Assembly (NCBI RefSeq): GCF_000002425.4
Contig: NC_037259.1
Span: 2,756,381-2,820,380, forward strand
Direction: 5' to 3'
Origin: Physcomitrium patens
Taxonomy: Eukaryota; Streptophyta; Bryopsida; Funariales; Funariaceae
DNA: 64,000 nt
Made by a program: the position numbers and the translations under genes. The notes beneath the pieces were generated by a model. The model had not been told where the DNA came from. It did no database searches and saw only the letters and a program-made list of their open reading frames with translations. Positions 666 to 41,595 of the stretch are shown piece by piece; the first letter of the stretch is position 1; every line of letters begins with the position of its first letter.

Positions 666-857
666 AAGGATGATGGCGGTAACAGACTCGCTGATATACT
701 GAAATTCCTCCATCAAGTGGCCCAGCACAATGCAAGCGCACAGCAAGGTCACGAACAATGAAATAGCGACCACGACCATATGGTCTTCTGAGCCATCTAA
801 CCCCGTCTTCGTCATAAGGTAGTTAAGAGATCTCACAGGGAGCGCCCCCACCTCCAT
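666..857 (-). CDS. NHX: Vacuolar Na+(K+)/H+ antiporter NHX1-type, first coding exon (partial gene)
   Basis: This minus-strand exon of 64 codons encodes the N-terminus of a class I (vacuolar) NHX cation/proton antiporter, which exchanges cytosolic Na+ or K+ for vacuolar H+. The diagnostic stretch is LFVTLLCACIVLGHL followed by ESVTAIIL; plant NHX1 proteins have the near-identical LFVALLCACIVLGHLLEE and NESITALLIG at the same place, in the first membrane segment. The exon begins at the ATG at 857 and ends at a GTAAGT donor (GT at 665-664) in phase 0, where the family continues with a glycine-rich GLGTG segment. No second exon with the LLPPIIFNAG motif is visible between 1 and 660, so intron 1 continues beyond the left edge. 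The family identity is a direct motif match; vacuolar location is inferred from the class. Confidence 0.88.
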
Positions 858-3180
858 GTTGCTTAGCTGCGTTTCAGGGCCTTCCGAATTTCGGTATCAA
901 AAGAAGATCCGTCCCAAAACGAAATGAAGGCCCCTTCAATTCAACACGTCCGATTCTCCTGCGTCGAAAATTTCTAATTAGTCGTTGACACCGACAAGAA
1001 AGTAGGGTTGAAAAAGATGAGGAATCGCCTGGACATACAAACACAATGATAGAGGAGGCTTGATTGTTTTCGGAATTACAAAGATGGAAGTGTAAACCGA
1101 CAAAAGACTCTGAGCTCCACGTATGCAGTGTAACCTCGTTTTCTTGATAAACCAGGCTGGGTTACAGAATAAAAACTGGTTCAGGTAATTCAATCAACCA
1201 AAGGCACTAGCGTCTGATACATTGGCATGTAAGAAACAACTCCCTACGCTATTAACCACCTTATGACCAGATCGAACAAGAGCAGACCTTCAACGACCTC
1301 ATTTGAAAACACTACAACACAACTTCTACTAGCTTGTGGCGACAGAATTCACCGATTACTGAAACTATCCTTTTTTAAACCTCCTGACAGTCTAATCTAA
1401 AGCTAGCACGTCAAATTCCCAAGGTAACGAATGAAACCCTGCTAAACTCGATAAACGAGCTAGCAGGTACTAAAACCACAACCAAAACTATCAAACTCTC
1501 GACCAAAAAAACTGAACCCTCACCTTCACAGACACGCAACCTCTCAACAGGCAAGCCCTAATTGCAGTATCGATGCCAAAAATTACCATCACACACCTCC
1601 AATTCATCACCAAAACCAACTCTACGTTGCGTTTCGGCGCAGCGGCCTTGATTCACACGATCGTTCACCTCGAATCCATTCACTCAGGACACACAAGAAT
1701 CCAATTACTCCATTTGATTTGGACGGAATAAATTCGAAAGTGCGCTAGACGAGTGTACCAAATTTCAAAACCTGTCGAACTGTGGGCCTATAACGAGTGT
1801 AACTAATTTCACACCCTTTCGAACTGTGTTCATGGGACGAAAGAAAACAGCTTTGACGCGATTCGGCCTCAGGTTTGCTCGAAACGTCCAGTGGACCACA
1901 ACCTCGGTCTCGCTACCTCACCCGCCTCCTATTCCGGCACACTAAAGCAGATTGGCCACCTTTTCGCAAGTTATTCATTCCTATCAAATCCCCGTTCACA
2001 CCTGCTGCTGCCACTGCCACTGCTCTTGCGAAGCTGTACACCTCCCTTCTTGGCCATGACTTTTTGCCCTCATCTATCATTCCTGTGACCATCAGTTACT
2101 TCTTAAGTATTTCGGTAAGTATTCTTCTCACACGAAAATTTACTTGTGAATTTCCTTCAACTTCTTTACATGTACATAAATTTACTTTTGTACTTATTTT
2201 TGTGTATACCTCTACCAGAGTATGTTTATATAAATTGTTTACATGAAATCCATCCTTCCTTGCAATGTAAATGTCGAGTCTCAGCATTGGTACGCGATGA
2301 CCTCGATGTGATTGAGTTATTTGAAAACATGACTAAGTTGCTGTTCAAAAGGAGAGTGTGAACACCTTCAGTTTATTCATGTACATGCTGCCTCGAAGCA
2401 CGAGTCACAGACGGATATGGAGACCAAAAGATGAGGAGCGGAAGGTCAGAATTGAGTGTAGTACCACTTGTCAATGTCTCATTATTACTCTGCTTTGGCT
2501 GCAGGGAATATTAGTGCGGGACAACGATAAAGCTGTGAACGGAGCAGGATGTGTCCTCAGACGATCTATCTCCTCAAAGATCGATGGACCATTCGGCAGT
2601 CCTGGCCTACAGCACTACTCTCGCTGGACTGTCCAGGGTCTCCCCAGCGTGGCCATGTGTGTGGCCTTGTGGTTGACCGTAGAATCTGCCGAACATTCTC
2701 AACCTCGCCGGACAATGCAACTAGGGCTGCGATCCACAGATACCGATTCTGAATAAACGCACAGGGAGAGAATAGTATACAGACAGAGAGAGAGAGAAGC
2801 TATTCGTGAGGTTTGCTAAAGCAGGACTGTGTGTGGTGTGTGCAATGCGGTGCGATGGTCAGTAGTAGCGGAATCCACTTGCGCTGCAACAAGGAGCTCT
2901 CTGTGTGTTTGTCGGAGGAGGAGGAGCTTTGTGTTCGTTACTGCGGGAAAGCTCCGCGACGAGTGTTGCGGGCTATGACGTCAGCGTTATTTCTAGACGG
3001 GGGAGCCGCTGACGTCGGCTTCTCAACTGCCGCTGGACGTCTCTCGGCGGCACGACCTGGTTATCAATTGGACAGGATGAATGACCCGCCTGTCCTGCTG
3101 GTAGCGGTGGATGAGATTTCAAAACTTCATCCTCGTTGCCTTCACAAACGTAGGGCTCACTTCCTCATCTGCAATTAATT
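858..3180 (-). promoter_or_regulatory. 5' UTR and promoter region of the NHX gene (GC-richer block)
   Basis: This block upstream of the NHX start has clearly higher GC than the AT-rich DNA that begins sharply near 3180. Read on the minus strand it carries a pyrimidine-rich run at about 2780-2805 (CTCTCT), as is common near plant transcription starts. It also holds two ACGT-core sites, TGACGTCA at 2976-2983 and TGACGTCG at 3010-3017, typical bZIP targets. Several short open frames on both strands (for example 2358-2756 and 2813-3178, plus) resemble no family I know. I read the block as promoter, leader and probably a leader intron; the exact transcription start is unknown. Confidence 0.5.
2976..3017. 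promoter_or_regulatory. Paired ACGT-core (bZIP-type) sites
   Basis: A perfect palindrome TGACGTCA (2976-2983) and a second TGACGTCG (3010-3017) lie 34 bp apart start to start. bZIP factors of the TGA and ABF classes bind such cores. They sit about 2.1 kb upstream of the NHX ATG, near the outer end of the GC-rich promoter block. NHX genes are commonly induced by salt and ABA, so the sites are plausible regulatory elements, but this is inference from sequence only. Confidence 0.35.
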
Positions 3181-8743: not shown

Positions 8744-9256
8744 CAAGCACATGAATTCAAAACCATAGAAGTTTCAATTCACCCTTGTATTAGTCAAAAC
8801 AACTAGATATTCATTCAAAAATAGTATATTATTAAAATTAGAATGATTTCTATTAAAGATTAGAAAGTTAATTATTCTTGAAATAAGCCTAAAAAAAAGA
8901 AAAATATTCACAAGAGTGAAGAAGGCTTCACTCTTGTTTCCATTATTTAATTAGAAGCTACATAACAACATTCTATACAACCTTCAACATGTGTCCAACT
9001 TGTGAGATTCATGTCTAACTTATAAAAAAACTTTCTAACATATGTGCTACTTGGCCAACTTGTATCATAAGTTATCAATATGTGCCACATATAACTAACT
9101 TGTTGGCCAAGTTTCTAACCTATCAATCAACTACAAATATGTGTAAAGTTAAATTTGCATTTATGAAGATTTAAAGAAGCTTTTCCACAAGACATTATCA
9201 AATCTACTTCCATTTATCTTCTACCTAACATTTTTATTTAGTTAATTATATATATT
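8744..9256 (-). repeat. Gypsy LTR copy (minus orientation)
   Basis: One of about nine copies in this window of a 450-510 bp LTR. Read on the plus strand it starts near a degenerate AAGGACATGAATC-like end (GCACATGAATTC here), carries a near-palindrome with half CAAGAGTGAAG (8911-8936), and later the conserved GTTGGCCAAGTTTCTAACC segment. In the sense (minus) direction the order is U3, a TATATA-like box, the palindrome, then the rest. It is the best candidate for the 3' LTR of the minus-strand gypsy element at 8744-15189. Confidence 0.75.
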
Positions 9257-9749
9257 TTTGAATTACTCCTCATTTTAGGAATGTATTCTACAAAGAGCAA
9301 TAATTACATCTTGATTCTTAATTTTGATTTTAATGGATGCTATTGATAAAAAACATCAATTATCTTTGCTATATTTGAAAGTTTTTTTTATTAGCTATTA
9401 TATATATTTATTAATATCATATCCATATTTATATACAAGATATTACAACCAATTTTGGTAACACCTTGAATATAAGACTTCTTCAATCTTAAAGTCTTGA
9501 TGATTATCAATTTCTATAAGAAGAGATGGATTTATTTTTTTTTCTCAAATATCGACTATTTTGTATGACTCAAGGAGAGACCTAAGATGGATCTTCATAT
9601 AATTTTATAGATATAAATGATGTACAACTAAATTGGTATGTTGATAAATAAGATGTGATTAAAGTTTATAATAATCAAACTTGTCATAAAATTGACTAAT
9701 CTTGGTATTACCACAAAATTATTATACAATGATGTCAATGTAGAATTGA

Positions 9750-9783
<34 letters not shown>

Positions 9784-9848
9784 CCTATAATAAACATCTA
9801 TATTGATCTTTTGTTGTTCTTAAAATACCTTTAATTTTATCTTACTTA
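9257..9848. other. AT-rich spacer between two inverted LTR copies
   Basis: About 590 bp lying between a minus-oriented LTR copy (8744-9256) and a plus-oriented one (9849-10345). It includes a 32-bp poly-T run at 9752-9783. No coding sequence is visible. Confidence 0.6.
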
Positions 9849-10345
9849 TGTCATGGATATATATAATAACTTAAATAAGAAATATTATAAAAATATAAAT
9901 AAAAGTAGATTTGATAATATCTTAAAGAAAAGATTTATAGATACATATTTGACTTTATATGTGTTTGTAGTTGATTGATAAATTCAAAATTGGGCAAATA
10001 AGTTGGCCACATGTTGCACACATTGATAACTTATGATATAAGTTGGTTATATGGTACACATAGAAAAAAATTACTTTGCAAGTTAGACACGTATTGGAGG
10101 TCCTATTAAACTTTACTACATAGCTCTTAATTAGATAGTATATATGGAGACAAGAGTGAAGCTTTCTTCACTCTTGTCAATATTTCTTTTATTCATAGTC
10201 TTGTTTTAAAAGTGTCTAATCTTCTTGACGTTGATAAATATTTTAATTCTAATATATTATTATTTATGAGTAAAAAACTTTTTTTTTAATGATTTAAGAG
10301 TATATTAAGGATTTTATTCCATGTGATTCATGTCCTTAAGAAATT
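9849..10345 (+). repeat. Gypsy LTR copy (plus orientation)
   Basis: This LTR copy starts with TGTCATGGATATA, matching the TGTTATGGACATA start of the copy at 15189-14737. It contains a TATATGG box and the CAAGAGTGAAG palindrome (10151-10176), and ends at GATTCATGTCCTT. Its orientation is opposite to the surrounding minus-strand gypsy body, so it is a nested solo LTR or the remnant of another element. Confidence 0.75.
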
Positions 10346-13300
10346 GGTGCATATAAATCTAATAAACAATTTGCCAAATCTTCTACCACCAAATTATTAA
10401 TTTTTTAGAATTTTAAAGTATCAAGTTCTAAATAATAATCATAATTATCATTAAAAGGTATTTCTTAAGTATAAAAATATAAAATTTTGTTATAAAAAAA
10501 CTTTGTCAATGTTAAAAGAGTTGTCCAATCATCTTCATAGTAATTGATGATACATCTTAAATGCTCTTCAAAAACTTGATTCATTTTTTTTATTTGTCTA
10601 TAAATTTAAAAATCAAAAATGAAAAATATTTTTAAATCTACTTTCAATATCTTAAAAATAATTTTTCAAAATATTAATACAAATTAAATTCTTATATCTA
10701 ATATAATATTTCTTGGTTATCTTTAATAGGAAAAAATATTGTCAATGAAAATTTTAGATATTTTTTATTTTGTAATAGATTATATAAATAGTACAAAATT
10801 TATCATTTTGGTGAAATAATCTACTATCATAAATATTAAGTCATAAGAACTTGTAATTTAAAGATCTGTAATAAAATCTATAGAAACATAAGACTATAGT
10901 TTTTGGATATAAGTAATTGATATAAAAGTCCATAAGAGTAATAAGGAAGATTTTTTTTTTATATTTTGAAAAAATATTATATAATTTTACAAATTTTTTG
11001 ATTGCCTTTTATATTTAAAGCTATCAATTTGTTTTTGATTTGAGTTTTAAGGTCTTATTATATCCAAAATATTTTGCAGTTAAGAAGTTGTGATGAGCTT
11101 GAAAATCACATAATTATGCTTCACTTTTTGGAATATATAAGCATTCTTTGAATAGAATAGTTTATTCTTGAATTTTAATTTTATAATATTATAAAATTTA
11201 GATAGTTTATTTTTAATATCCAGAATAAATAGATTTTTAAATTGACTTGATTGAACTTACTTAAAAAAAAATTGAATCAATAGTCAATTAATTTTATTTC
11301 TTGTAAATAAAATTTCTTAACCTTCAAAGGGATTTTTAATTTTTGATGAAACATTCTATTTCTTTCTTTTGATGCAAGATAAGAACGCGCAGAAAGTGCA
11401 TTTAACAAATCTTGATGTTTTCGTACTCAATAAATGATCTTAAATACAAATCTTGATAAGAACTTACTCCAATAAGCTAAGAAATAAATTGAAGCATATA
11501 TTGATTTGAAATACTTAAGATTTTAGTAATTTATATACATAGTGATTAGATCAGAAGTATCTTCGAAATAATGGCATAATTCTTAAAATGTATCCACAAT
11601 AGCAATAAACTCTTTATAATAGATAGTATAGTTAACTTTGGCTATTAAAAATTTTATTAAATAAAAAGCTATTAGATGAAATTTACCATCTACTCCCATT
11701 TGTGAAAATATTACATATAAAGTAAAGTCCAGTATGTTTCTTCTTATACAAATTGCATTGGAAAAGTTAACACAATAAAAGTTTGATGTAGAAGTAAAAG
11801 TTATCTTTAAAGCTTCAAATATTCCTTTAATTTCTTTATTCTACTCAAATTTGTCTTTACAAGTCAAACATACAAGTAAAGCTACAACTTTAAAGAAGTT
11901 CTTAATAAAGATTCAATAATAATTAAAAAAAAAATTCTAAAATATTAGACATTTTTATTTATTTTTAAAATATTTTATTCCATGATAATTTGAATTTTTT
12001 TAGATCCACCAAAAGACCGTTTTTTGAAATCATGTATCTAAAGAAATCAACTTGAGTTATACAAAATGTAGACTTTTTTTTATCTTTATATATAGTATTA
12101 TAACTTTAACTTTTTGTAGTATATAAAAATTATGAATTTCATGTTATTTTATGTTTTTAGAGTAGATTTAAATATTTTCTAAATAAAGAAATTAAAATAA
12201 TCTAAAAATTCTCAAAAAACACGATTCATAAAATAATAAAAAGAAGCTAGTATATTTGTGACTTCAAAAGGCATGCCATTGTATTTGAAATGTCCATACC
12301 TGCTTTGAAATGTAGTCTTCTATTTTATCTCTTTCTATGATATATACTAGATTATATGGTCCTTATAGATTCATTTTTTTATAAATCTTAGTTTGATTCA
12401 ACTGATCAAGAAGTTCTAAAATTAAAGATAGAAGATACTTATTTTTGATAGTGATCTTGTTGATTTCTTGATAATCTACACACAACTATAGTAATCCATC
12501 TTTTATCTTTACAAATAAGATAAAAGCTTTTGCTAGAGATTTTGAATGGCATATAAAGTTTTTAGGTAGGTTCTTACTAATTTATTCTTTGACTTCAAAT
12601 AATTCATACCTTGATAAGTTATAGATTGGATCAAATGGCAGTTGAGTTCTTCCTTAAAAATTAATTGAATAATTATAAAGACAATACTTTTGAAGAATAT
12701 TTATATATATATTTTTTCAAAAACATCTTGATAAACTTGATATTAACTTAGAATATTACTTGAAGTCTTTTCACTATAAGAAATAAATATGGCATAAAAT
12801 AGAAAAAAATTGCTTTTTTTTTACAACATGCATAAAGGTTTTAATACCTATTAATAAAAATTTGAACTTATGACTTTTTACTTGCATAATAGAATTGTAG
12901 ATTATGCTATGAACTAAATTAAAGTTACAAGAGATCTATTTTATTTAAAAATTCTACTTGTCTAGCTATAATAAATCTAAAATAACTAAATTAGATGGAA
13001 ATTTAGTAATATTTATTATTACTAAGATATTATGTCCATTAATTGATAAATCTAAAGAAATAATTTTATAAGTAACATCTCTAAAAAAATAATGATAGAC
13101 TATCTATGACTTTTATTTGCATAAGCTTAGATTTTTTAAATAAAGTGATTTCTTCTTTTTTTGATAAAATCTTAATTTAAAAAAAAAAAAAAAAAAAATC
13201 AATTTTATAAGACTTTTATATCATTTAACTCTAAATAAATATCTTTTATTAAGCAAAGTAATGGATTTAAGGATAGAATTAGACCTTTATTAGTTATTGC

Positions 13301-14179
13301 ATAAGATTTAAGCTATACGATCCCTATTATAGCCAAACAAACTTATTTTTTGATATATTTTTCTCTTTAGTAATTATGATTCTTATTTTGTAATTGTATT
13401 GTGCTTTTAGAGAATATTGAGTAATATACTTAGGTTCTCTACAATATAAGTATAATCTTTTTTAACAATATTGAATCTTCTTTTGCTCAAGAAAAAAATT
13501 AAAATATACCATATTAATTAGCGTAGTTTTTAACCTTAATAAATGAGTTTTTTAAAACTTAAGAGTTGTTACCATGACTTGACTTGTATTTCTTAAACCA
13601 AATCTTTGTTCTTAGCATCTATCAAAAAGTCAATTATTGCATGCAATGACTTAAGTAATAAATTATTCTAATAAATTTACTTTTGATATTATTAAAAATA
13701 AATATTTGGTATTATCTTTCAATCTATGTTAAAATTGATTGATAAAGACTTTGTTATTCTAATCCATGTTCCAAGAAAGGTTTTGGAAATTATCAACATA
13801 TATAGTGGCTAAATATGATTCTTATTTAATAAATAGGAGTATAATCTTTGTTACTATTTCTTGATTATTTTTTTAAAATGTAGTTGTAAATACTTCTATG
13901 AATAAATTTAAATTATAAAAAAATTATAAATTCTTTTTTATTAAAGATAAAAATCAAAAAGAATAGTTTTAGATAGAAATATACATATAAATCTAACTTG
14001 AATAAATCCATTAAGGTATTGAGAAGGATTCAAACTTAGATAGTGCTTTATTTATTGTAAAAAATCCAAAAAGTTTTGATCTTTTTTATCAAAAAAGTTA
14101 TAATACTTATTTTGGCTTTTCTCACACTAATAGTAAGACTTCTTAGATTCAATTGTAAAGTTGATCTGATTGCGTCTTT

Positions 14180-14432
14180 CAACATGTTGTCATGTAGCTC
14201 CTACTTTAATAACATATATAGAAGTAAGAGTGAAGTCTTCTTTATTCTTGTTAATGCCTTTCTAGTCCTTAGTCTTATTTCAAGACTTTCTAATCTTCTC
14301 GTCTTTGGCAATAGCCATTTTAGTTTAATATTATATTAACTTTCAATGATTCTCTAATCTTTTCAAGAGACACAAGTCTGTATTAATATTTTTATTTTGT
14401 AAGATTCATGTCTTTGCTATAAGTTTAGCATC
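14180..14432 (+). repeat. Truncated gypsy LTR copy (plus orientation)
   Basis: It holds the inner and 3' part of the LTR: the degenerate palindrome at about 14222-14250, then the conserved CTTGTTTCAAGACT-like and AGCCATTTTAGTTTAATATTA-like segments, ending at GATTCATGTCTTTG. The 5' part is missing. It abuts gag-leader sequence of the minus-strand element and forms an inverted pair with the LTR at 14737-15189. Confidence 0.65.
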
Positions 14433-14736
14433 TATAATTTTTCTTATCATTTCTATAAAAAATGAATTTCACAAATTTATAAATCAAATTAGAGGAAGAT
14501 AATCTATAACTTCAAATATTAACTAAACATTTCTACAAAAAAAAAGATAGTATATTCTCATTAATGAAAGAATCAAGGTTATAAAATCAAAAATATAAAT
14601 TTAAAGATCAATAGTTTGTAATTTTTAAAGTACAATAAAGAAAATAGAGTGATCCACTCACTTGTAGAACAAAATAAGAATAATGAATTAACACTTTTAT
14701 CAAACTCTCAAGGACATGAATCACAAAAAATAATCT

Positions 14737-15189
14737 TTTTAATACACTCTTGGATCACTAAAAAAGAATAAATTGTTACTTAAAGATGGTATATTAATAA
14801 GCTAGAATGGCTATTGCTAAAGACAAGAAAACTAGAAACTTTTGAAACAAGACTAAAAACAAAAAAGGCATTGGCAAGAATGAAGAATGCTTCATTCTTG
14901 TATCCATATATATTATCTAACTAGGAGCTATATAGCAATATTCTATATTGAGATCTCAAACACATGTCTCACTTGCAAAATAAGTTTCTTACATGTACAC
15001 CACATGGTCAATATGTGACTAAATTATTGTCCAAGTTCTTAATCTTTTAATCAACTACAAATATATACAAAATTAATATTTGCATCTATAAAACTTCTAA
15101 ATTTTTTTACTACAAGATATTATCAACTCTACTAACATTTATCTTCTATCTAACATTTCTTATCTAAGTAATTAAGTATGTCCATAACA
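14737..15189 (-). repeat. Gypsy 5' LTR of element 1 (minus orientation)
   Basis: On the minus strand this LTR begins at 15189 with TGTTATGGACATA. It has the palindrome at 14900-14875, and ends near GATTCATGTCCTTGAG at about 14737. The sequence after it (14737-14430, minus) matches the leader that follows the 5' LTR of the other element (from about 34945), which identifies this copy as a 5' LTR. Confidence 0.75.
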
Positions 15190-17798: not shown

Positions 17799-20700
17799 AT
17801 GGTCGCGAAGCCTATGTCGCTGTTGTCGAAGAGTGTTGGCCATGGAGATCGGGTGGTGCCCAGCAGGGACAGGGACGGTAGTGTTAGCAACGGCGGCACC
17901 CGAGCGTCGTCGGTGAAGAAGACGCGTTCGCTTAAAGCTCGCAGTCCGGAGCGAGGGGAAGTAGAGCGAGTCTCGGGAAATGTGAGTAGCACCCCTACCC
18001 CGAGAATCCGGAGCGTAGCCCGTCACATTACCTTGGAACATCAGCAGCTGAATCGTTCGAGGGATGCGGATACAGGGGTGAATGGGTGTCGCCACCCTAC
18101 GTTGGAACATCCGCAGTTGACTCGCTCAAGGGATGCAGAAGCAGGCGTGAAATTTGAGGGCCGCCACATCGCTTCGGACCATCAACAGCATAGTCGGAAC
18201 TCAAAAGACGTAAACTCTACAGGGGGGAAATTTGAGGGTCGGCATACTGCCTCTGAATATCAGCAGCCTAGCCGGAATTCTAGAGAGTCCGTGGATTCAG
18301 GCGGGAGTAAGTTTGAGGGTCGTCACACTTCTTCGGATCATCAGCCGCCTAGTCGCAACTCTAGAGAATCTAACGGTTCAGGTGGGGGTAAATTTGAGGG
18401 TCGGCATGCTGCTTCTGATCATCAGCCGCAGAGTCGCAACTCTAGAGAAACTGGCGATTCAGCGGCGGGTGGACTTGAGGGGCGCCATGTGCCTTCTGGA
18501 CACCATCAATCCAGTCGGAACTCGAAAGATGTGGATTCAGCAGGAGAGAAACCTGAGCTCGACGACTCGATGCCGACTGCCGCGAACAGGCCCTGGGAAA
18601 ACGGAGTGCATCACCCCAGCCTGAATTCGCCGATGATGTTGAGTCTCGGTGGGGGTGTGCAGATGAAGTGGACGGCGACACAGCACCTGGACCTGCAGTC
18701 GGCTTTGCGGTCCGGTTCCCCAGCTGCTCACCCTCATTGCGCGACGTTCCATCCAACCCTGCCGTTGATTGCCGTGGCTGTGGGTAGAAATATCGTCGGT
18801 AAGGTTTATTTTTCTTTTAAGCTCTTTACACCAGGCGCAACTTTACTAAGGCGGCTGGTCACATCATGAACTTGAGGGAGGGGAGGGGATCTGGAGTTTG
18901 TGTGCTCTCTTAACAGAGATGTGAGTTTTTCACGTTGCATTTGTTCAGCTGGTATTGAAACTACGTTCAGCCCGTAACGCGTATTTTTAGTACTCTTGAA
19001 CTTCACGTTCTTACAAATTCTCTGGTATAACCGAGTACGCTAACAGCACCATCTGATAGATGAAAGAATGGATACTAATTTTACGAGTGAGACGAGAGCC
19101 CCATGATATTGCAATCAGAGAATGTCACTTACTCTAGTTACCTTCTGATACCGGAGATTTGCAGTGTGCTGTGGCTCCGCTCATCCTTAGATTTATTATG
19201 GGACTTAGGAAAGTACGGCGTTCAGACTGGTCCATATGTTAGCTATCCCCGTCGATTCGTGTAGTTAAAAATCATTCTGCGCGTGTGCGTATGAATGTGA
19301 GTCTGCTGCATCACGCTGAGATGCGCATGGGCCGTGAGCTTCACTCTCTCTCCTTGGCTCTCCAGGAAAGCCATGCGTCGTTTGAATCGTGGAAGCGAGG
19401 CCTAGTGTAAATCTCTCTTTGAAGTTTTAGATGATAGTTTTTCACTTACAAAAGTTTTAGTTTTTCTGTCGTGCAGATGGTTAGCCGGTATTAATCTATT
19501 CTCTTTGCACACACATATCATTTTCTTTAATAGAATATTAGTCGTTTCTATTCCTTGGAGATGCTAATATAAGTTGGAAAACGATGTTTCGTGCTATGCA
19601 GAGTTCGATGCATTGACAGGGAGTAAGCTTTTGAGCATGGACATTGGAGCAACGGTGGTGCGCATGGCTTACAGTCCCGCTGGAGGTCATGTCATTGTTG
19701 CTGTGCTTGAGGTGAGATAAAAGCGTTCATGGAAAGTTTACATGCCCTCCTCAAGGCTTGCTACTGGCTGTTGTAATGCTTTCTTCAGAATCTAGTTTAT
19801 ACGGTATTTAACTTATTACCAAATCCAATGCTTGAATTGTCTTCTGAAAGACGCTTTGGCGAAATTGCTTTGTCCCGGTGTAGGATTGGACTATCAGGTC
19901 GTGGGATCTGGACACAGAGCAAACACATATACTCTATTCTCCAGCAGATAGGAAGTCTGATAACGCAAACGGAGGCAGTATTGAAGTTCACATAGCACTT
20001 ACACCTCTCAAATCTTGGATTTTTTTTGTTGCTCATCGCCGACTGAGTGTCAATGGTAGGGTTATCCGTGCTCTACAACTGTCATGTTTTCAGTCATTGT
20101 GTCTGTAGAAATGTAAATGGCAGTTGGGATTTTTTGCTACGATCTCATTTCTTCGTTTATGTTGTTTGAAACAGTTGTTGGCACAGACGTTGAGAACGCG
20201 AAGTCTGCTAGTAAAGTAAAGATGGACTTAAAGAGGCCTATAGCCCAACTGGCATGCCACCCTCGGCATCCAGTATTGGTACTGTTCTTTTTCTTGCCGA
20301 CCTGGCACTTTTCAAGTTCAATTTGTAAATCAACCAGAGGCTTCTCAACGGCGTGCTTATATGTTCCTAGTACGCGTTGCTCGCGATTATTCTGCACTAC
20401 TAATCCTTTGGCTGTTTGCATTTCAGTACGTGGCATACTCGGACGGGATAGTACGAGCTTACCACATTCAGAACTTCGCTGTCTTGTATACCTTGCAAAG
20501 TGAGTTTAGACAACTCTGCTGCACGTCTTTCAACTACCTCATTTGCTTGTCCTCTGAAACAGACCTAAACGTCTGCTGTGTGTAGTTTATTTGAAGTTTT
20601 TCTATCCGGGCATGCGTAAGTCGTTTTGTGCTTTTGTTTTCTTTGGGTGGTCACGTTGTGGCATATTTCGATACGGATTGTGTTATCATTCATGCGCGGT

Positions 20701-23700
20701 TCTTTGACATCGTCTTGAGTTCCTTTGCTGGTGATGCAGTCGATCCTGCTGTGAAGTTATTAGGAGCTGGAGCGTTTGCCTTCCATCCAACTTTAGAGTG
20801 GATGTTTGTCGGTGACCGAAGTGGAACTCTTTTGGCGTGGGATGTTTCAGTCCCAAGTCGACCAAGTCTGATTGGCATGTAAGAAAGCCCTGAGGTTGTA
20901 AACCTCCTAATCTGCGAGCCGTTCTGTTCTAGTGGGTTGTAATTCTGTCTTTGAACACAATTAGTAATGTTTGGCTCTTAGAAATGCTTGGAAGCTTGAG
21001 GATCGTGTACTCTCTAAGTTATCTTGGCATTCGACAGCATCTCCACTGGCACAAGTCCGATCGTTTCAGTCTGCTGGCTCGCAATGCTCAACATGGTCGT
21101 TACACTCAATAAGGAAGGATCAGTTCAAGCCTGGCGGACTCGTGTAGCCCCTGATCCAAATAAACCCCATATGCGTGCCAACTTTCTGGAATCTGCAGGT
21201 AATTTCCATGCATGTTGGTTGAGGAATCAGGACCGCCAGTTTATGCAGTGCATCTTAAAGTGTTTTAGAGTCGGCGTGCTTTACACTAAGATTTGATTAC
21301 ATGCATTAACATCTTGGTTGAGTTTGATCCAGGAGTAGACCCTTTGGATATTACCACAATCCTGAGCCAGAATGGCGGGGGCACTCTGCACCCACTTCCG
21401 AGGATTATCGACCTTCTGGTTCATCCGAAGTTCAATCTGACATCACTACTTTTTGCGGTAAGTTGAACTTCAGTCCTTATTGAAGAAGTTGCTGATTTAG
21501 ACGAGTATATCAGTGGACACTACTACATCTTTAAAGAGAGCTGACTCAGTGGGTGCTGTATGCAGAATGCATCAGCTAGTCCTGAGGACACTAGGAGAAG
21601 AGGAGGTGATCGTGCGTCTCGCGATTCGAGAAAACAGCTGATTACGGTGCTTCAGGCGGCTCCAGCGTCGATGATCTGCGTGTGCAGGCTTGCTTCCACA
21701 GAGCTTCAGAGCAATCTGTTGGTGGAGGTGTCCGACTCCCGATTTCATCTCCACAAGGTGATTGTGATTGTGATATAGCTATTCTCATATAGATTCCTTG
21801 AATGAATATCGTCGTCTTTGAGAAAGAATGCTACTGAACTGCTTGAATCTAGCTACTTCGCTCCAGGGCTTTAAAATTTGTATTATTTGTTTGCCTCTCC
21901 GGCAGTTTCCCCTTCTTTCTCGTAGCGGACGACTCAATCGCTTGGTCTTCGAGTCAAGAGACACAAACAAAGACCACATCAAGCTCCCTCAAATGCCAGG
22001 TGGTGCGGAAGCCTTTGAGCTCTGTGTGAAATTCTGCTACGGCATGCCGTTGGAGTTGACCCCACAAAATGTGGCCACGCTTCGGTGCGCAGCCGAGTAC
22101 CTGGAGATGACGGACAGTTTAGAAGATAGAAATCTCGTCTCCAAGACGGAGCACTATCTGAGCTTCGTCATTTTACCATCGTGGAAGGACTCCATTACAG
22201 TATTGCAGTCATGTCAGAGACTACTTCCATGGGCCGAGGAAACGCAAATTGTGAGAAGGACTAGTGAGAGTGTAGCATGGAAGGCTTACACTGATCAGCA
22301 TGGAATCAAGTGGTCGTTCACTAGTACTTCGAATGTGCCGACGACGACGCAGCACATTCCTCATGATTGGTGGGTAGAGGACGTGATCCAGCTGAATTTT
22401 GATGCATTCAAGAAGGTCATGACCGCCGTGACAGCCAAAGGCATGGCGTACACGCTGGTGGGCTCGGCCATAGCTCAATACGGCACACGGTGGATTCCTG
22501 GAGTTGAAAAGAAGATTCGGAAGCATCACCAAGAGCCGAACAGGGAAATTCCAGGATCTTACTTGACCGGTAAAGAGATCGTTCTTCGTGACGCACCGAA
22601 TCATGTCCAGAGCCTGAATCAAGACGAAAATAGAGAGTTGGTGGAAGGTGTGGCAGCCATGTTGCCGCCACAGCAGGACGGTGTTTCCTGTAGCTTCTTG
22701 TTGAGGCTGCTGCGGGCGGCATGCGTGTTTGGTGCTAGCGCTTCTTGCCGGGAAGAGCTGGAGAGGCGAGTGGGTTTGCAGCTGGAGCATGCATCACTTA
22801 GCGATCTTCTCATCCCTTCTTCGCATCCTGCAAGTCAGACGATGTATGATCTCGATGTTATTCAACGCATTCTCGAGCACTTCTTGCTCAAGGTTAGTTG
22901 TCTTCCTCGCATCTTGAATCCTAACCTGCACGCATGTGGTTAAAGGCTTCCCATCAAGTTGTCGTCTTCATCCTATCATGTTCTTGTACTTCAGGATCAA
23001 ACTGGTATGGCTAGTCCTACAATGAGTGTGAAGAATGACAAGCAACTCCACGTTTTCGAGAACGGCGTCAGTAAACCACCGACAACCCCGACTATGAGCA
23101 AAAGCAAAGTCGCTAAGCTCATGGACGCATACCTCGCCGAAGTCGCCAGGGACTCGAATCTTCCGCTGGCGAGATTCCAAAACTTTGCGGAGGCAGTGCC
23201 TCAGTTTTCGCGGGCAACGGATGATGGATTGTACAGAGCTGTCGATACATACCTTAAGGCATGTCCTATTTCGACCTATTTCTATTGCACTATCTCTACT
23301 GCTCTAATGGAAAACCGTTTCTTCGTTACCAACCTTGCTGACCACAGTGACCTTAACGTCACAGCATCGTCTGTGAACAGATGGTGCTTGCTTAGAGTTA
23401 CGGTCTAAAAGAAGACAGGTGCGCTGTCTATTAATCACTACCTATTCCATGGCTGCACAGGCACATCCTACCATGACAGAGCACGAGCGCAAGAAACTGT
23501 GTCGTGTAATGGATTGTCAGCGACTCTCCCTGGAAGCGTGTCTGCACGCTGCACAGAACGAGCGTCTTCCTCTTCGCGTTGTCGTTCAGGTATATAAACC
23601 TTAAGCATTGCGCTCTAGTCAAAATTGTTTGCAAATTGCTGCATTGTCTCCCTTTCAACACTGTTCAGATAAAGCTAAGTGACTCCCTCTCTCTCCCCTT

Positions 23701-24423
23701 TGGTTTTTTTCTTGATGTGGCCTCGCAGGTATTGTTTAGTGAGCAAGTTAAGCTTCGTAATGCAATCACAGGGCACTCTTCCAAGAAGGCATTGCGCGAC
23801 AACCACCAGGTGGAGAACGGCAGCGCGCATGCTTCTGTCCAGGATTCTCAGGTCGGAAGCCAAAGTATTGTTTCTAGACCAGATGACTCAGACGCCACTG
23901 ACGGGCTCTCTCTTCACGAGAGCTGGCTAGCCGCACGGCAGGACATCAAGTACCTTAAACAAGATATGGAGAGAATGAAGGCCAAATACGCCGATCTTGA
24001 ACATGATTACATGACCCAACAGGTGTGCACTATATATCTGTCTCCAAATCAGCAGAGTACATCGATCATTTGTCTTACTAGTCATGCACTAATGCCTTCT
24101 GTGAGCTTTACTGACTGTTGCTGGAACGTGTGTAGGTTGAAAAGAAAGCAAAACCGAAACCGAACTCCTCTTCAGCATGGACGTCAGGGTGGAAGAAGAT
24201 GAGCAGCACTTTGAAGCGTCCCAGCTTATTTCACTCTTCAAAACAAGATTTCGAGTACAATCACAAGGACGACGCTTCCATCGCGCCCACCAATCCCGAA
24301 TCTGGCGACGGCGCACACGATCACTCTTTCACTCCCAGAGTTACCACTGCCGATCAGCGCAGGAGGTCACATTCAGTGACCTCGATAGCATCAGTTCAAA
24401 GATGGAGAAATTCCATCTCATAA
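17799..24423 (+). CDS. NPH3: TWD40-1 beta-propeller fused to a BTB-NPH3 phototropin-signalling adaptor (14 exons, 1345 aa)
   Basis: Exons: 17799-18798, 19602-19711, 19884-20055, 20175-20278, 20427-20499, 20740-20878, 21038-21198, 21333-21457, 21566-21757, 21906-22892, 22995-23258, 23461-23589, 23729-24022, 24136-24423. All phases match and no stop interrupts the frame. Residues 1-288 are a disordered repeat-rich extension. Residues 289-663 match the N-terminus of plant TWD40-1/TTRAY1 ([34 protein letters not shown]), the first beta-propeller of this TPLATE/TSET endocytic subunit. From about residue 664 the protein is NPH3-like: BTB core [33 protein letters not shown], the YLKAHP segment, [18 protein letters not shown], a coiled coil, and the terminal RWRNSIS shared with NPH3 and RPT2. 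NPH3 proteins adapt CUL3 ligases in phototropin signalling. The join lies inside exon 9. One intron is GC-AG. Transcription is inferred, not shown. Confidence 0.85.
18021..18549 (+). repeat. Seven-unit coding tandem repeat in the fusion protein's N-terminal extension
   Basis: Residues about 75-250 contain seven units of 23-27 residues (about 80 nt). The best-conserved units have the form KFEGRH-x-x-SDHQ-x-x-SRNSRE followed by a Ser/Gly-rich spacer. The outer units are more diverged ([17 protein letters not shown] at the start, [15 protein letters not shown] at the end). The repeats are rich in Ser, Arg, His and Gly and probably disordered. I do not recognise the motif. It precedes the methionine (18663, residue 289) that corresponds to the normal start of TWD40-1. 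Confidence 0.85.
18663..21670 (+). other. TWD40-1 (TTRAY1)-derived segment of the fusion gene
   Basis: Residues 289-663 align in order with the start of Arabidopsis TWD40-1. Matches run from [11 protein letters not shown] through [59 protein letters not shown] and TTILSQ-GG to [10 protein letters not shown]. The length, about 375 residues, covers one beta-propeller. TWD40-1 normally continues with a second propeller and an alpha-solenoid; none of that is present here, because the frame turns into NPH3 sequence. The assignment rests on remembered family sequence. Confidence 0.85.
21671..24423 (+). other. BTB-NPH3 segment of the fusion gene
   Basis: Residues 664-1345 (about 680) are close to the usual length of an NPH3/RPT2 protein. 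The BTB fold starts at about 21680; the usual intron after FHLHK is present at 21757. The NPH3 domain follows, including the [15 protein letters not shown] segment with its conserved tyrosine. Then come a coiled coil ([19 protein letters not shown]) and the [12 protein letters not shown] segment. The last residues, RWRNSIS, are the place where 14-3-3 proteins bind phosphorylated Arabidopsis NPH3. Only the short variable N-terminus of a normal NPH3 protein is missing, replaced by the TWD40-1 part. Confidence 0.9.
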
Positions 24424-34417: not shown

Positions 34418-34945
34418 TATCACGGACATACATATTTACCTAGATAAGAAGTACTAGGTAGAATGTAAATATAAGTAGTTTTGATATTGTCTTAAGGCAA
34501 AGCTTTTTAGAAGCTTCATAGATACATATTTGACTAAATATATGCTTATAGTTGATTGGTAGGTTAGAAACTTGGCCAATAAGTTAGTCATATATCATAT
34601 GTATGGATAGCTTGTGATACAAGCTTATGATGTGGTTTCATATTAGAAACTTGCCTTGTAAGTTAAGACATATTTCTTACAAATTGGACAAGTATTGGAT
34701 GTCTTATAGAATATTTTCATATAGCTTTTAGTTAGATAGTATATATAGAAGCTAGAGTGAAGCCTTCTTCATTCTTATCTATACCTTTTTAGTTGTTAGT
34801 CTTGTTTCAAGACTTTTTAATCTTCTTGTTTTTAGCCATAGCCATTTTAGTTTAATATTATATCATCTTTGAGTGATTTTTCAGACTTTTTGAATAATAT
34901 AAGATTATATTGATCTTTTATTTCTTTGAGATTTATATCCTTGAT
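34418..34945 (+). repeat. Gypsy 5' LTR of element 2 (plus orientation)
   Basis: The LTR starts near 34418 (degenerate TGTTATGGACATA) and carries the TATATAGA box and the degenerate palindrome at 34752-34777. It ends near ATTTATATCCTTGA at about 34945. About 185 bp downstream, TGGTATTAGA at 35129-35138 resembles a decayed initiator-Met primer-binding motif (TGGTATCAGA). Five other LTR copies end at the ...CATGTCCTT boundary, so the LTR itself probably ends near 34945. Confidence 0.75.
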
Positions 34946-36060
34946 AATTTGATATAAGTATTAACTCATTGTTATTGTTTTGTTTTTAGAAGTGAATAGA
35001 TTATTTCACTTCTATTATTATATTTTTAAGGTTACAAATTATCTATCTTTAAACTAATATTTAGTTTTTTAATACTAGTTTTTTTTGTTAAAAGGAGAAG
35101 ATTATTTTCTTTTGTAGAAATTTTCATTTGGTATTAGATGTTATAGATTACTTCATTTTAATTTGACTTGTAGTTTTGTTTGAATTTTTTATAGAAGGAA
35201 AAATTATAAATGTTATTCTTGGTAGAAATGAGAATAGATTTGCAACTATTATAAATCTTTATGAGCTTGTTAATGCTCTTAGGATGAAAAATTCACACAT
35301 TTTCAATATAAATCATAGAAGTACTATTTCTATCCTTATAAAAGAAGTCAATAATGAAGTTCAAAGAATATGCCAAGAAGTTATGCAATTGAGAGAAGCA
35401 AGTAAATTAAGTTTATAATCAAATTTGAAAAGCTTTGCTATTAGAAGTATGAAGAAAACAAGGATAAGTATGTCACAGAAGTTTGATAGAATAAGATTAA
35501 AGCTTTGAATATTTCTACCACAAGTAAAGTTCTATTTAAGGTTGCATCCTTCTCAATATTTTGATGGATTTACTCAAGTAGGATTTATAAGTGCACTTCT
35601 ATCTAGGAATGTTCTTTCTAGATTGGTACCTTTTATAGAAAAAGATTCACAACTATTTTATAATTTGAATTCATTCTTTGAAATATTTATGGCCACATTT
35701 GGAAAAAGTGACTTATAAAAGGTAGTAGAGACAAAATTTTTATCTTTATAATAAAAATCACGTTCAACTACCATATATGTTAGTAAATTCTAAAATCTTA
35801 CTCGCAACTTGAATTGGAATAATAAAGTCTTTATCAATTAATTTTGATATAGGTTGAAAGATTATACTAAGTATTTATTGTTGACAATGCTCAGAGTAGA
35901 CTCATTAAAGCAATATATTGCTCAAGCCATTGCATGAGACAATCAATTCTTTAAATGATGTCAAGAACAAAGATTTGGTTAGAGAGGTATGAGTCAAATC
36001 ATGGTTACACCTTCTAAGTTTTTGAAAGATTATCCATCTTAGCCAAAGTCTATATGTGAG

Positions 36061-37292
36061 CTAAATTAAACCTTCACTAGAGAGAAGTTTATTCTAAAAC
36101 TAGTGAATTAGCTATGTGAATTTTAGAAGTTATAGCTATTACTTAAATCCTAATAAATTCACTCTCTAATCTTCTTAAAAACCTCCATAATCAAGCTCAA
36201 TTTCAAATATTAATTCATATTTATAATAATAATTCTATTACAAAATACATATCTAAAAATTCCTTCTCTTAATTGAGAAGAAATTAGAATCACTAATACA
36301 AAACCATACCTACTCATGGTAGGAAATCTAATACCTTTGGAAAAAATTCAACACACAATTCCAATGAGATAGATATTAGAACTCATGTAATATAAATTGG
36401 CATTGAATTTGAAAGAAGCCATGATTACTAAGATCTGCTTGAGAGGTAAGCACAAGATTATTCTTGATAGAGGCTTGATATAGATGGAAAGAACTATTTT
36501 CATTACTAATATGGTCACAAACTCAAGAATTGTATTGCTTCTCTACTAACACTATAAAGAAAAAATTAGGTTGATGCTAAACTAGTAGTGCTATACAATT
36601 ACTAAAATGAAGGACAAAAGTGACTAGATCATGTGAAAGACAATTCACAAATAATACAAGGACATCACCTCTACGAGATGAAGAAAAAAAAATTACTATT
36701 GCCACTTGACACCAATAACTCCTTCTTTTGCACAACACTATATAATTGATGCATAATTAATGCATCGATGAAGACAAAAAAAACTAGACAATAGAAAAAA
36801 TACACTAGACCTGCTTAATTCTTAAAAACTTGGAGATCTATATCATAGGAAAAATCAAGAAGAAGAAAAAAAAAACATCAATAAGCTGGCTTGATCATTG
36901 GCTTTTGAAAATATAATGCAATTTCAATACCTAATATGTCATAGTAGATTTGTTGCCACCTCCTTGTGCCAAGAAAACTCAAGCCATTGCCATACCATAG
37001 TTGGCTCTTCTTGCTTTATATTAATCAAAAAAAATAATAAGGATTGTACTACAATACTTAAGCAAAACAAAAAAAAAAAAAAAAAAAAAAAAACTAAAAT
37101 CTGAGCCATGCTTCCATTGCATATACTCATAGAAAAAAAAAAAATACACAAAGAGAGGAAAAAATGTTGTAGTCAAAGCCGGATCCTTTACACAAAAATT
37201 AGAGCAAAAAAGAAGGAAGGGAATTAAAGGCGATCTAGACCCTCATTAATAAAGAAGCTTCCAGGGTTTAAAGGTAACTTCTCATCTTTTCT

Positions 37293-37326
<34 letters not shown>

Positions 37327-37600
37327 CTATTTTTTTTTTCTCTCCTTCATTTTTTTCTTCTATTTTTTATTTCTTTTTTAATTGATCAGATCAAGTTTAT
37401 ATTTAGTTTCTAGTTCAATTAATTTTTTAATGACAAAAAATACTATAAAAAATCATAAATCTATATAAAGTATATTAAGAAGAAATTATTTATTTAAAAA
37501 TTTTATTTAAAAAAAATCTAATTGAAGATCCTTTTGTTTACTAACATCCTATTTAATTCAAAAATATTACACTAATTTACTAAAATAATGACTTAAAGTA
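36061..37600. other. Probable nested insertion inside gag of gypsy element 2
   Basis: The gag capsid ends near 36060, but the nucleocapsid zinc-knuckle relic appears only at about 37720. The DNA between contains poly-A (37066-37092), poly-T (37298-37326) and purine-rich stretches with no gypsy similarity that I can see. It is probably another, unidentified insertion. Confidence 0.4.
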
Positions 37601-40600
37601 CAATATGTATATGTTTTGCACTAAAATGCATCAGTGAGTCAATTCTATAATTCACACTATACAAATTGATATAGTAGTTTTTAATCTCTTATTGGGCAAA
37701 AAAAGACTTAACTTTGTGAAGAAGGTTTGTACCTATATTATGGAGAATTAAAGCATATTATTCAACATTATCCAAAGAAGCAATATAATTACAAAATCAG
37801 GAGGATAGTTACAAAAGAAGACAATGTATTAAAAAATGTGTTTCTTTAGCTACAATATGAACTATGTGATTGGAATCTTGTATAATACCTATTAAAGGTT
37901 CTATTCTTTCTTTAGATTCATTACCTTGTTTTATAATAAAAGTTTATTTGAGACCAAAAAATCATAAAATCTTTTGTTTATTAGATTCAAGAGCCTTAGC
38001 ATATTTTATAAACAAAGATTTTATAAAAAATAAGAAATATTCTTAGTCAAGAAAATCAAATTTGTGCATGTAAAATTCATAGATAGTTTTTTTTATTATT
38101 CTTTGGAGATTTTATCTATAAAATAATTCTTTTAAATGTAGCAATTAAAGTTTATAATAACATAGTAATATTTAATATCATTAAATCTTCTTTCAACTTA
38201 ATTATTTTAGGATTATTGTGATTAGAAAAATATAACCCTCAAATAGATTAGATTTCTTATAACCTTGATTTTTTTTTTAGTTTAGTTTAAGATTCTATTA
38301 GTCAAGTAGGAATTCATAAGTTTAATACAACCTAATATTTATTGGTAGGTGTAAGAGCTTTTATGCATGTAGCAAAAGAAGGATCAACTTTTGTTATATA
38401 TGCCACACCTATTTTTAATGGAAAAAAAATTTAAGACTATTAAAATAATTTTAAGAAGAAGAATATCAATATTCTTCTAAAACATCATTTATATGATTGT
38501 TCCATCGATCTTTAAGAAAAAACTCAACCACCATTTGGACCAATCTATAACTTATAGTAGAACAAGTTGGTTGCATCTAAAGAATTCATTGATAAGAACT
38601 TGGCTATAAACTTCATACATTATTTTAAATCTCCAATCCGAGCTCCTATCTTATTTGTAAAGAAAAAAAATGGATTGTTAAAGATATATGTAGACTATCA
38701 TAGATTCAACAAGATTATTATCAAGAATACATATTTTTTATTTTTGATTTCAAAACTTCTTGATCAATTCAATGAAATAAAGATCTATATAAAAATAGAT
38801 CTATAAAGAGCATATAACTTGATATGCATCAAAGAAGGATAATACCATATTTTAAACAAGGTATGGATATTTCAAATATAATATCATGCCTTTTGAATTT
38901 ACAAATACACCAATTACTTTTTAACATTTAATAGATAATATCTTTTTTGAGTTTCTTAATGATTTTATCATTTGTTATTTAGATGATATTTTAATTTACT
39001 TTAAGAACATAAAAAGTATAAAATTTATATTTATTATGTATTACAAAATTATAAGATATAAGATTATATACCAATATAAAAAAGCATATAGTTCATATTA
39101 CTTAAATTAACTTTTTAGAATACATTATTTTAAATGATGGTCTTATGATGGATTTTTAAAAAGTCCAAATTATCATAGATTGGAAGATTCCAAAAGCAAT
39201 CAAAGATGTATAATATTTTCTGGAATTTTTCAATTATTATCAGATTTTTATCAATTTTTTTTTTTAAGTTGCGGCTCCTCTTATACATTTAACATGTAAA
39301 GACAAATTTGAGTGGAATGAAGAAGCTGAAGCATCTTTTGAAGTCTTAAAAATTTTATTTATTTTTACACCAATCTTGTATTGTGTCAACTTTTCAAAGG
39401 CCTTCTTCATAAAAACAAACACATTGGACTTTGCTATGGATGCAATATTGTCAAAAATGAGAGTAAATAATAAGTTCCACCAAATAGCTTTCTAGAAATT
39501 TATGAAATTTTTAATACTTAAGATTAATTATGAGATCTATAACAAAAAATTTCTTGCAAGTGTGGATTTATTTTAAGAATGACATCATTATTTAGATGGT
39601 ACTTCTAGTTTAGTCACTATATATATGGAAGACTAAACCTTGAATATTTTATAGAAGCATATATTTTGAATTATCTCCAAGTTTGTTGTAACATGTCTTT
39701 ATAAAGATTTGATTTGTCAAATATCTTTTCTAGACATTTGTATCTTGTATCCAAAGAAGATACAACTTTTGATCAACCAAAAATGATTCTCTTGAAGCCA
39801 AAATATTTTTATCTTTGAGTAATGAAATCAATATTGATTGTTGATTCAACTTTTTTTAGGCAAGTTTAATTGAATATGTCTTTTGATCTTCTTATTTATG
39901 ATATTAAAAATAATTCTTTTAAGTCTTATAATACTTCTAAATTAGAGTTTAAGAATAATCTATTCTATTTTAAAGAATGATTATATATTCCAATAGGCAA
40001 AGCATGGTTAATTATTCTTCAAGCTCATCATGACTTTTAAATAGTCACACATTTTGGATACAATTAGAATTTAGAATTAATATCCAAAGATTTTTGGTGG
40101 CTTCAAATATAGAAGGTAGTTAAAGACTTTGTATAATCATGTGACTTTTATTTAAGATTAAAAATTCTTCATCATCAATCTTATGGATTTTTTTAATGAT
40201 TAATTATTTCAGAACAACTACAATCTATTTTTTTCTATAAATTTTATCATAGATCTTTTAGTCTCAGATTCATATGATTGTATATTTATAATAATAGATT
40301 TTTTTTTATTAAAATGGCACATTTTATATCATATAAAAAACCTATTACAAGTAAAATGAGAATTAAGTTTTTTATTGATAACAACTATCACTATCATGGA
40401 ATGCCCAAGGATATTATATCAAATAGAAAGACTCAATTTGTATCAAGATTTTAGAAAATTCTTTTTAAAATTTTGAAGGTAGATATAATGTTAAATTTTA
40501 TTTTTTATTTTCAAATCAATGAAAAAATGAAGCATATAAATCAAGTTTTGGAGCAATATTTGAAATGTACCAACAATTATCAACAATATGATTAAACAAT

Positions 40601-41089
40601 TATTTTACCACTGACAAAGTTTGTTTATAATAACATAGTACTTTCTTTTTTACAACAAATATCTTTTTTTTATTAATTATGGTTATCATCCATGACTTGA
40701 TGCTTTGAAATTTGTAAAAGTTGATAATTCTAATGTGAAAGATTTGACAAATTACTTATTTGAGCTACATACAACAATCAAAATATAACTAAAAGAAGTT
40801 TAAGAATGATAAAAGACTAATACAGATGCCTATTACTAAGAGCAATGTCAATTCTATATTGGCAATAAAGTATGATTATTTTGTTGAAATATCAAAATTA
40901 GTTGCTTTTGAGACAAGTTGGATTATTGTAGGCTTAGACCATTTTTTTTATATGTAAATAAATCAATCATGTTGCTTATCAATCACATGTATTAAATTTA
41001 TGAAGATCTATCTTATATTCTATATGTTTCTTTTTAAATCGTATAAGATAATATGTATGTCAAGAAGAAGACAAATACTACATCTTATC

Positions 41090-41595
41090 AAAGACATAAA
41101 TCTCAAAGAACTATACAGTCAATATACTCTTGTGTTTTTCTAAAAGACTAGAAAATTACTCAAAGATGATATAATATTAAACTAGAATGGCTATTATCAA
41201 AGATTAGAAGATTAAAAAGTCTTGAAATAAGATTAAATATTAAAAATGTATTGATAAGAGTGAAGAAGGCTTCACTCTTGTCTCCATATATACTATCAAA
41301 GTAGGAGCTACGTGGTAATGTTGTATAGGATTTTTAACAAGTATTAATTTTATTAGATACATATCTTAACTTGCAAGGTAAGTTTCTATATGTATGCCAT
41401 ATAATTAGCTTATTCCACAAGTTATTAATATGTGGGATATATGATTAATTTATTGACCAAGTTTCTAATCTATCAATCAACTATAAATATGTGTAAAGTC
41501 AAAATTACAAATATGAAGCTTCTAAGAAGCTTCTTTAGAAAATATTATGAAATTAATAAATATTTACTTATTTCTATCTAAATATATAAATAATT
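41090..41595 (-). repeat. Gypsy LTR copy (minus orientation)
   Basis: On the plus strand this copy starts at CAAAGACATAAATC, with the palindrome at 41254-41280 and the GACCAAGTTTCTAATCTATCAATCAAC segment near 41450. It faces opposite to the gypsy body it follows, so it is not that element's own 3' LTR. Confidence 0.75.

Follow-up and report, generated by a model that had tools for sequence, protein, structure and literature searches.

We have analyzed a 64,000 nucleotide stretch of the Physcomitrium patens genome (contig NC_037259.1, positions 2,756,381 to 2,820,380; the window), which lies on the contig called C7 here and carries on its forward strand, at window positions 17799-24423, a gene that joins a beta-propeller of TWD40-1 origin to a BTB-NPH3 protein. 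The gene has 14 exons, at 17799-18798, 19602-19711, 19884-20055, 20175-20278 and 20427-20499 (exons 1-5), 20740-20878, 21038-21198, 21333-21457, 21566-21757 and 21906-22892 (exons 6-10), and 22995-23258, 23461-23589, 23729-24022 and 24136-24423 (exons 11-14). Twelve of the 13 introns are GT-AG and intron 11 (23259-23460) is GC-AG. An earlier note on this DNA had the 14 exons joining in phase without an internal stop, and this is confirmed: there is a single terminal stop, and the 1345 amino acid (aa) product is identical to a deposited P. patens protein, P0001 (1345 aa), described as uncharacterised or as an NPH3-domain protein. In the product, Pfam places a BTB domain at residues 675-763 (29.9 bits, cut-off 20.5) ahead of an NPH3 domain at residues 846-1136 (310 bits, cut-off 27), the latter covering the full PF03000 profile (1-258). 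Pfam propeller models match weakly, below cut-off, within about residues 316-569. Judged by these Pfam scores and by the 78.7% identity of the propeller to its intact counterpart described below, the NPH3, BTB and propeller assignments are far above chance.

P0001 was found by a protein search that listed 57 matches from 7990 scored candidates. Two further protein searches listed 120 matches of 494 and 120 of 1180, the last being sized for proteins of 275-875 aa, and the listed matches make up the fetched set of 253 proteins. The database cluster of P0001 holds 52 contigs, with the source 'lgn' among them. The contigs of other 'lgn' proteins have the size of mRNAs (one protein of 1674 aa lies on 6314 bases). 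One of these proteins, P0005 (781 aa on 2728 bases), agrees with the intact P. patens TWD40-1 at 770 of 770 residues, across exons that genomic introns separate. Because of this contig size and this match, the 'lgn' contigs, that of the fusion included, would represent spliced, uninterrupted transcripts.

The fusion begins as an NPH3 protein. Codons 1-282 of exon 1 (17799-18644) are NPH3-derived by homology to an unfused NPH3 protein of Ceratodon purpureus, P0003, which the fusion N-terminus matches at 46% over 132 aa (E 1.8e-20). P0003 (1194 aa, without a propeller) has nearly the same start as the fusion and carries ENGVLHPSLHSPMMLS; the motif ENGV.HPSL.SPMMLS is common to both. This P0003-like motif ends at fusion codon 282, six codons ahead of the TWD40-1 start methionine. 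After SPMMLS, P0003 has about 400 low-complexity-looking residues before its BTB domain, and P. patens has the propeller there instead. The N-terminal region is probably disordered, its counterpart in the fold model of a second fusion copy having a confidence (predicted local distance difference test, pLDDT) of about 30. This extension also contains an 81-bp (27-codon) tandem repeat of 3.3 copies, found by Tandem Repeats Finder at 18222-18488, whose units encode KFEGRH..SDHQ..SRNSRES. The assignment of exons 1-9 to the TWD40-1 N-terminus therefore stands from position 18663 to exon 9 and fails for codons 1-282. Since these codons are NPH3-derived, the homology places the TWD40-1 segment inside an NPH3 gene, rather than at the head of a TWD40-1 gene.

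The remainder of exon 9, exons 10-14 and the stop (21688-24423) encode the BTB domain, the NPH3 domain and the C-terminal region, which are NPH3-derived by Pfam and by 83% identity to P0003. A phase-0 intron at HLHK|FPLL is common to the fusion and other P. patens NPH3 genes. An NPH3 tree of 33 rows unites the two P. patens fusions with P0003 and with P0213, an 'lgn' protein, in one clade (100/100), and P0003 is the nearest unfused relative of the fusion. P0223 (444 aa, JGI source), P0226 and P0228, like P0213, are relatives of the same NPH3 lineage. A search of the P. patens genome with P0003, in which 39 of 113 candidates were scored, gave no unfused ortholog for this lineage: the main BTB-NPH3 exon matches at 87% on C7 and 81% on contig C11 and at 54% at the next locus; other loci reach 56-69% in short C-terminal stretches only. 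Other NPH3 lineages and one intact TWD40-1 persist in the genome.

The propeller segment occupies 370 codons at 18663-21655, in the rest of exon 1 and exons 2-9, and is interrupted by eight introns. The P. patens genome matches it on C7, C11 and C3. C3 carries an intact TWD40-1, such as the earlier note had suggested looking for elsewhere, with about 1.6 k codons in 25 exons in our gene model and its first 770 residues identical to P0005. The fusion resembles this gene in having its first propeller, at 78.7% aa identity (366 codons), and the eight introns of this part all agree with those of C3 in position and phase (1,0,1,0,1,2,1,0). It differs in that the second propeller is missing, together with some 1200 further residues and the COPI-alpha-like C-terminus. 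The farthest match of the C7 and C11 loci is to residue 303 of the Ceratodon TWD40-1 (P0017, 1578 aa), to which exon 9 adds about 30; a search with this protein found the second propeller and alpha-solenoid remainder at neither fusion locus, and the rest matches C3 only. A 17-row propeller tree groups the fusions with moss TWD40-1 at 99/97.

The donor family is one we take to be TWD40-1, the TTRAY-type scaffold subunit of the TPLATE complex or TSET; its database names are 'Transducin/WD40 repeat-like' or uncharacterised. P0017 matches COPI_C at 24.0 bits (cut-off 25) and the COPA/B second propeller at 16.8 (cut-off 57). These COPI-alpha-like matches, both below cut-off, are in line with the TSET TTRAY scaffold, which consists, in the passages of PMC4031984 concerned, of two propellers and an alpha-solenoid. 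No sequence relative was found in the PDB at E 0.01. Foldseek matches are generic WD40 propellers, alpha-COP 4j8b included, and were rejected as a means of naming the donor since they are too generic to discriminate.

At the 5' junction six codons, LGGGVQ (18645-18662), lie between the SPMMLS shared with the Ceratodon NPH3 and the TWD40-1 start codon. They are possibly former TWD40-1 5' untranslated region turned coding, though so short an alignment to C3 does not prove such an origin. The 3' junction lies in exon 9 and reads CTT CAG GCG GCT CCA GCG TCG, ATG ATC TGC GTG TGC AG/G CTT GCT TCC ACA GAG, resembling the end of TWD40-1 exon 9 up to about GCGTCG. The residues RKQLITVLQ, at 21629-21655, close the propeller segment. 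Next comes AAPAS (21656-21670), with which TWD40-1 exon 9 probably ends, a few bases before the donor site of the intact gene, according to an alignment with C3 exon 9 that is short, only partly alike, and leaves the exact break uncertain. The next 17 bases, ATGATCTGCGTGTGCAG at 21671-21687, now code for MICVC and the AG of the following codon, and are probably the relic 3' end of an ancestral NPH3 intron read as protein.

This reading of the 17 bases derives from the intron position in NPH3 paralogs. Ten non-fusion P. patens NPH3 loci were modelled on both strands, and seven of them have, exactly before the BTB domain, a phase-2 intron that splits a Trp codon TG|G and ends in AG|G; the intron is lacking in L053 and L054, and L055 is unclear. 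Among five further NPH3 loci, L004 has a phase-2 intron there, though outside a Trp codon, no intron stands at this place in L001, L002 or L003, and L005 has one elsewhere. The moss open reading frame P0223, in a shifted frame, has by our own reading the same AG|G followed by TTT GTA GCC ACG GAG. In the fusion the AG|G is still in position, and the bases ahead of it are read as codons for MICVC. The earlier note was right in proposing a genuine in-frame chimera with its switch in exon 9 (21566-21757); its positions for RKQLITVLQ (21653) and for the BTB start (21671) are corrected here, the former running from 21629 to 21655 and the BTB exon beginning at 21688, with the stretch 21671-21687 in between.

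The second copy of the fusion lies on the minus strand of C11, another chromosome-size contig, at 14,809,093-14,815,390 with its stop. Modelled with the C7 protein as guide, it has 14 exons and 1311 codons without an internal stop. It shares with the C7 copy the same two junctions, the positions and phases of all 13 introns and, in the splice models of both, the GC-AG intron 11. A deposited C11 protein, P0002 (1116 aa), matches our model at 1087 of 1089 residues. It then stops short, apparently since the deposited model runs on into intron 11.

The synonymous divergence (Ks) between the C7 and C11 copies is 0.81 (NG86) or 0.61 (YN00) in exon 10, 0.71 in the propeller and 0.84 from BTB to C-terminus. 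Four other pairs of P. patens NPH3 genes have Ks of 0.72, 0.77, 0.87 and 0.96 (NG86), and an older layer of NPH3 duplicates has Ks of 1.29-1.57 in five comparisons; L003-L004 stands at 1.03 and L051-L047 is saturated. Two rounds of whole-genome duplication in P. patens are described in the relevant part of PMC13120521. The fusion was probably doubled in the younger of these, because its Ks is like that of the other NPH3 pairs and because a stretch upstream of the two copies is colinear. The Ks of the propeller to C3 is 0.85 for C7 and 1.06 for C11. Since these values fall between the two layers, the capture would date from between the two duplications, or the donor was a TWD40-1 duplicate of such an age.

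Both copies show constraint. The ratio of nonsynonymous to synonymous substitution rates (dN/dS) between them is 0.112 (NG86) or 0.144 (YN00) in the propeller, 0.111 or 0.165 from BTB to C-terminus, and 0.275 or 0.313 in the N-terminal tail (NG86 and YN00, respectively). Conservation of the propeller was also assessed at 108 columns that are at least 98% invariant in 59 unfused TWD40-1 homologues, with C3 and Ceratodon left out. The C7 copy retains 95 of the 108, the C11 copy 91 and the intact C3 gene 99; in P0017, which is without its first exon, 7 of these columns are changed. As read from substitution patterns, two open copies, duplicated and kept under selection, mark the fusion as a lasting gene.

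Because the eight propeller introns match those of the C3 gene in position and phase, what was captured is, on gene structure, genomic TWD40-1 DNA, from just upstream of the ATG to the end of exon 9. Retention of all eight introns rules out a retroposed or mRNA-derived capture. Addition of an NPH3 gene at the 3' end of a TWD40-1 gene was also ruled out; the N-terminal tail is that of NPH3 and the later TWD40-1 exons match C3 only. In the simplest history, a single event would have put the TWD40-1 segment in place of the last part of NPH3 exon 1 and almost the whole of intron 1, and the last 17 bases of the replaced intron would have become the MICVC codons. The propeller would have been gained before the C7/C11 duplication. 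A gain, rather than a loss in Ceratodon, is favoured by parsimony, since other NPH3 proteins are without a propeller, and by the Ks values.

The NPH3 part of the fusion retains sequence features expected of a membrane-associated adaptor. The amphipathic helix by which Arabidopsis NPH3 binds the membrane has a counterpart at 24184-24222, with a hydrophobic moment of 0.58 and a net charge of +4, against 0.48-0.49 and +4 in two angiosperm NPH3s. The C-terminus RWRNSIS (24400-24420) corresponds in sequence to the phot1/14-3-3 site around Arabidopsis NPH3 S744, and both elements are retained in C7 and C11. In Arabidopsis, as reported in the sections concerned of PMC8531357 and PMC8531446, binding to the plasma membrane and to acidic phospholipids requires the helix, and phosphorylation by phot1 of S744, the third residue from the end, leads to 14-3-3 binding and membrane release; NPH3 also serves as a CUL3 substrate adaptor in phot1 ubiquitination, according to part of PMC7242014. 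An AlphaFold model was made on P0002, whose deposited C-terminus is truncated, with 45 sequences (mean pLDDT 62.9, predicted template modelling score 0.53). It has a tail of very low confidence followed by a propeller (residues 289-560, with block pLDDT 56-86), a linker of low confidence, and a BTB and helical NPH3 body mostly at 70-96 pLDDT.

The best reading, to which we give a probability of about two thirds (0.68), is a membrane-associated adaptor of NPH3 type with an added WD40 binding platform. The fusion would remain an adaptor in which the BTB domain engages CUL3 and the amphipathic helix the plasma membrane, and its C-terminal RxS site would be phosphorylated by phototropin and then bound by 14-3-3. 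The propeller, on its flexible linker, would recruit a new partner or substrate, the simplest candidate being a ligand of the first propeller of TWD40-1. Service as a full coat subunit, within the TPLATE complex, is unlikely, since the fusion has neither the second propeller nor the other parts of TWD40-1.

A doubtful alternative, the idea of the earlier note, which also named a decoy role, goes further, and has the propeller tether the NPH3 adaptor to TPLATE/TSET endocytic sites, or compete there with the intact TWD40-1, so that phototropin ubiquitination and internalisation would be combined in one polypeptide. The near-invariant TWD40-1 columns are largely retained (95 and 91 of 108), Arabidopsis NPH3 is the CUL3 adaptor for phot1 ubiquitination (PMC7242014, in part), and the TPLATE complex is an endocytic adaptor complex that includes TWD40-1 (PMC8144573, in part). 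However, neither fusion locus yielded the second propeller or the alpha-solenoid, which belong to the scaffold of TSET as described in part of PMC4031984. In Arabidopsis it is 14-3-3 binding that frees NPH3 from the membrane, a mechanism that the authors contrast with the vesicle trafficking of phot1 (portions of PMC8531446), and primary signalling does not need phot1 internalisation according to a section of a review (PMC7242014). A speculative extension, which we consider improbable, is that one protein joins phototropin ubiquitination to the delivery of the receptor or other cargo to TPLATE endocytic sites, switched by light via 14-3-3, all copies of one moss NPH3 lineage that survive in the P. 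patens lineage being fusions of this kind.

It is quite unlikely that the propeller is a tolerated spacer without a binding role, the NPH3 half alone being of consequence. The propeller does replace about 400 low-complexity-looking residues of P0003 and adjoins a low-confidence linker, and bulk is perhaps tolerated there; its dN/dS of 0.11-0.14, however, is the same as in the BTB/NPH3 part and much lower than in the tail (0.28-0.31), although folding alone could impose some of this constraint. Very unlikely is the view that two genes have been read as one, with one transcript starting ahead of the propeller and another shortly before the BTB exon. An in-frame ATG (21671) stands at the junction in both copies, but the TWD40 half lacks a separate stop or end, the junction falls within one exon and is open in both copies, and no half-only product of the locus is among the 120 listed of 1180 matches, while the full-length protein is deposited. 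An assembly or annotation artefact, the first of which the earlier note had kept in view, is practically excluded, short of both loci carrying the same misassembly, by a diverged copy on another contig (C11) whose junctions are the same and by the identical deposited protein; nothing was found in favour of an artefact.

Several points weigh against a captured propeller that serves an NPH3 adaptor. The fusion is seen in one species only (P. patens), and the N-terminal tail was seen in one unfused species only (Ceratodon), so that a gain of the propeller, as opposed to a loss in Ceratodon, is probable rather than certain. The NPH3 pairs used for Ks were chosen by similarity, not by synteny, and colinearity of C7 and C11 consists of one good upstream stretch (window 630-875), which has no Pfam family, and weak ones downstream (51.9-52.2 kb). 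The 17-row TWD40-1 tree gives no clear order of fusion, C3 and Ceratodon; dating by its branching order was set aside, and the dating therefore relies on Ks and the unfused Ceratodon locus. The transcript status of the 'lgn' contigs is deduced, and does not come from transcript alignment. Nine near-invariant columns are changed in both fusions; six of the nine are also changed in C3, and the changes at residues 386, 435 and 654, found in the fusions only, could mean altered binding by the propeller.

The membrane-associated adaptor favoured here resembles NPH3 of the NPH3/RPT2-like (NRL) family in its BTB and NPH3 domains, membrane-helix counterpart and terminal RWRNSIS, and is unlike that family in bearing a 370-residue propeller of TWD40-1 origin between tail and BTB. 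Among 178 fetched proteins that match the NPH3 half, all from the listed matches, a propeller occurs in P0001 and P0002 only. WD40 substrate receptors of cullin ligases form a general class. The fusion is like them in having a propeller as binding platform beside a cullin-adaptor module, and differs in that its adaptor is a plant BTB-NPH3 and its propeller comes from a vesicle-coat protein. The combination of propeller and BTB-NPH3 occurs in 2 of the 253 fetched proteins, both of P. patens, among the matches listed. The same architecture in related mosses, which the earlier note had raised, is not borne out in Ceratodon, where the ortholog P0003 is unfused; among the matches listed it is present in P. 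patens P0001 and P0002 only.

No report of the fusion was found among the titles and starts of abstracts listed in literature searches on the fusion, its families and NPH3 in Physcomitrella/Physcomitrium. The statement that no such fusion had been described agrees with this, although the protein itself was already deposited, as uncharacterised. The matching passages of PMC4867686 and PMC3310802 (12 of 13 places for the latter) do not mention it. PMC4054894 counts 26 annotated NPH3 genes, 7 with light-regulated splicing, and the fusion gene is not named in that portion of the paper. Domain capture by a signalling gene is a known kind of event; a propeller of coat-protein origin inside an NPH3 adaptor is a new form of it, unreported in the literature searched, in a sequence already deposited.

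Elsewhere in the window, consecutive open frames on the minus strand at 45885-51227 have Pfam matches to a protein kinase (49533-51227), to NB-ARC and a Roq1-like winged helix (48308-49105) and to leucine-rich repeats (45885-48182). They are possibly one gene for an immune receptor combining a kinase with a nucleotide-binding leucine-rich repeat protein. The segments 9000-15000 and 34500-43500 are repetitive, match several places in the C11 region in both orientations, and are probably transposable elements. A weak match to the RVT_2 reverse transcriptase, below cut-off, lies at 62668-63090.

The locus provides a clean and datable capture of a coat-protein propeller by a signalling adaptor, in which both parents and both junctions are visible, and at the 3' junction an intron stretch that probably turned into protein can still be seen. 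Precise gene editing is routine in P. patens. As the intact TWD40-1 is a separate gene, the propeller could be removed from both fusion copies without touching the coat gene. We know of no answer to what the first propeller of TWD40-1 binds. If the captured propeller keeps its ligand, the fusion would offer a handle on the binding of that first propeller, and a direct test of the coupling between NPH3-dependent ubiquitination and endocytosis.

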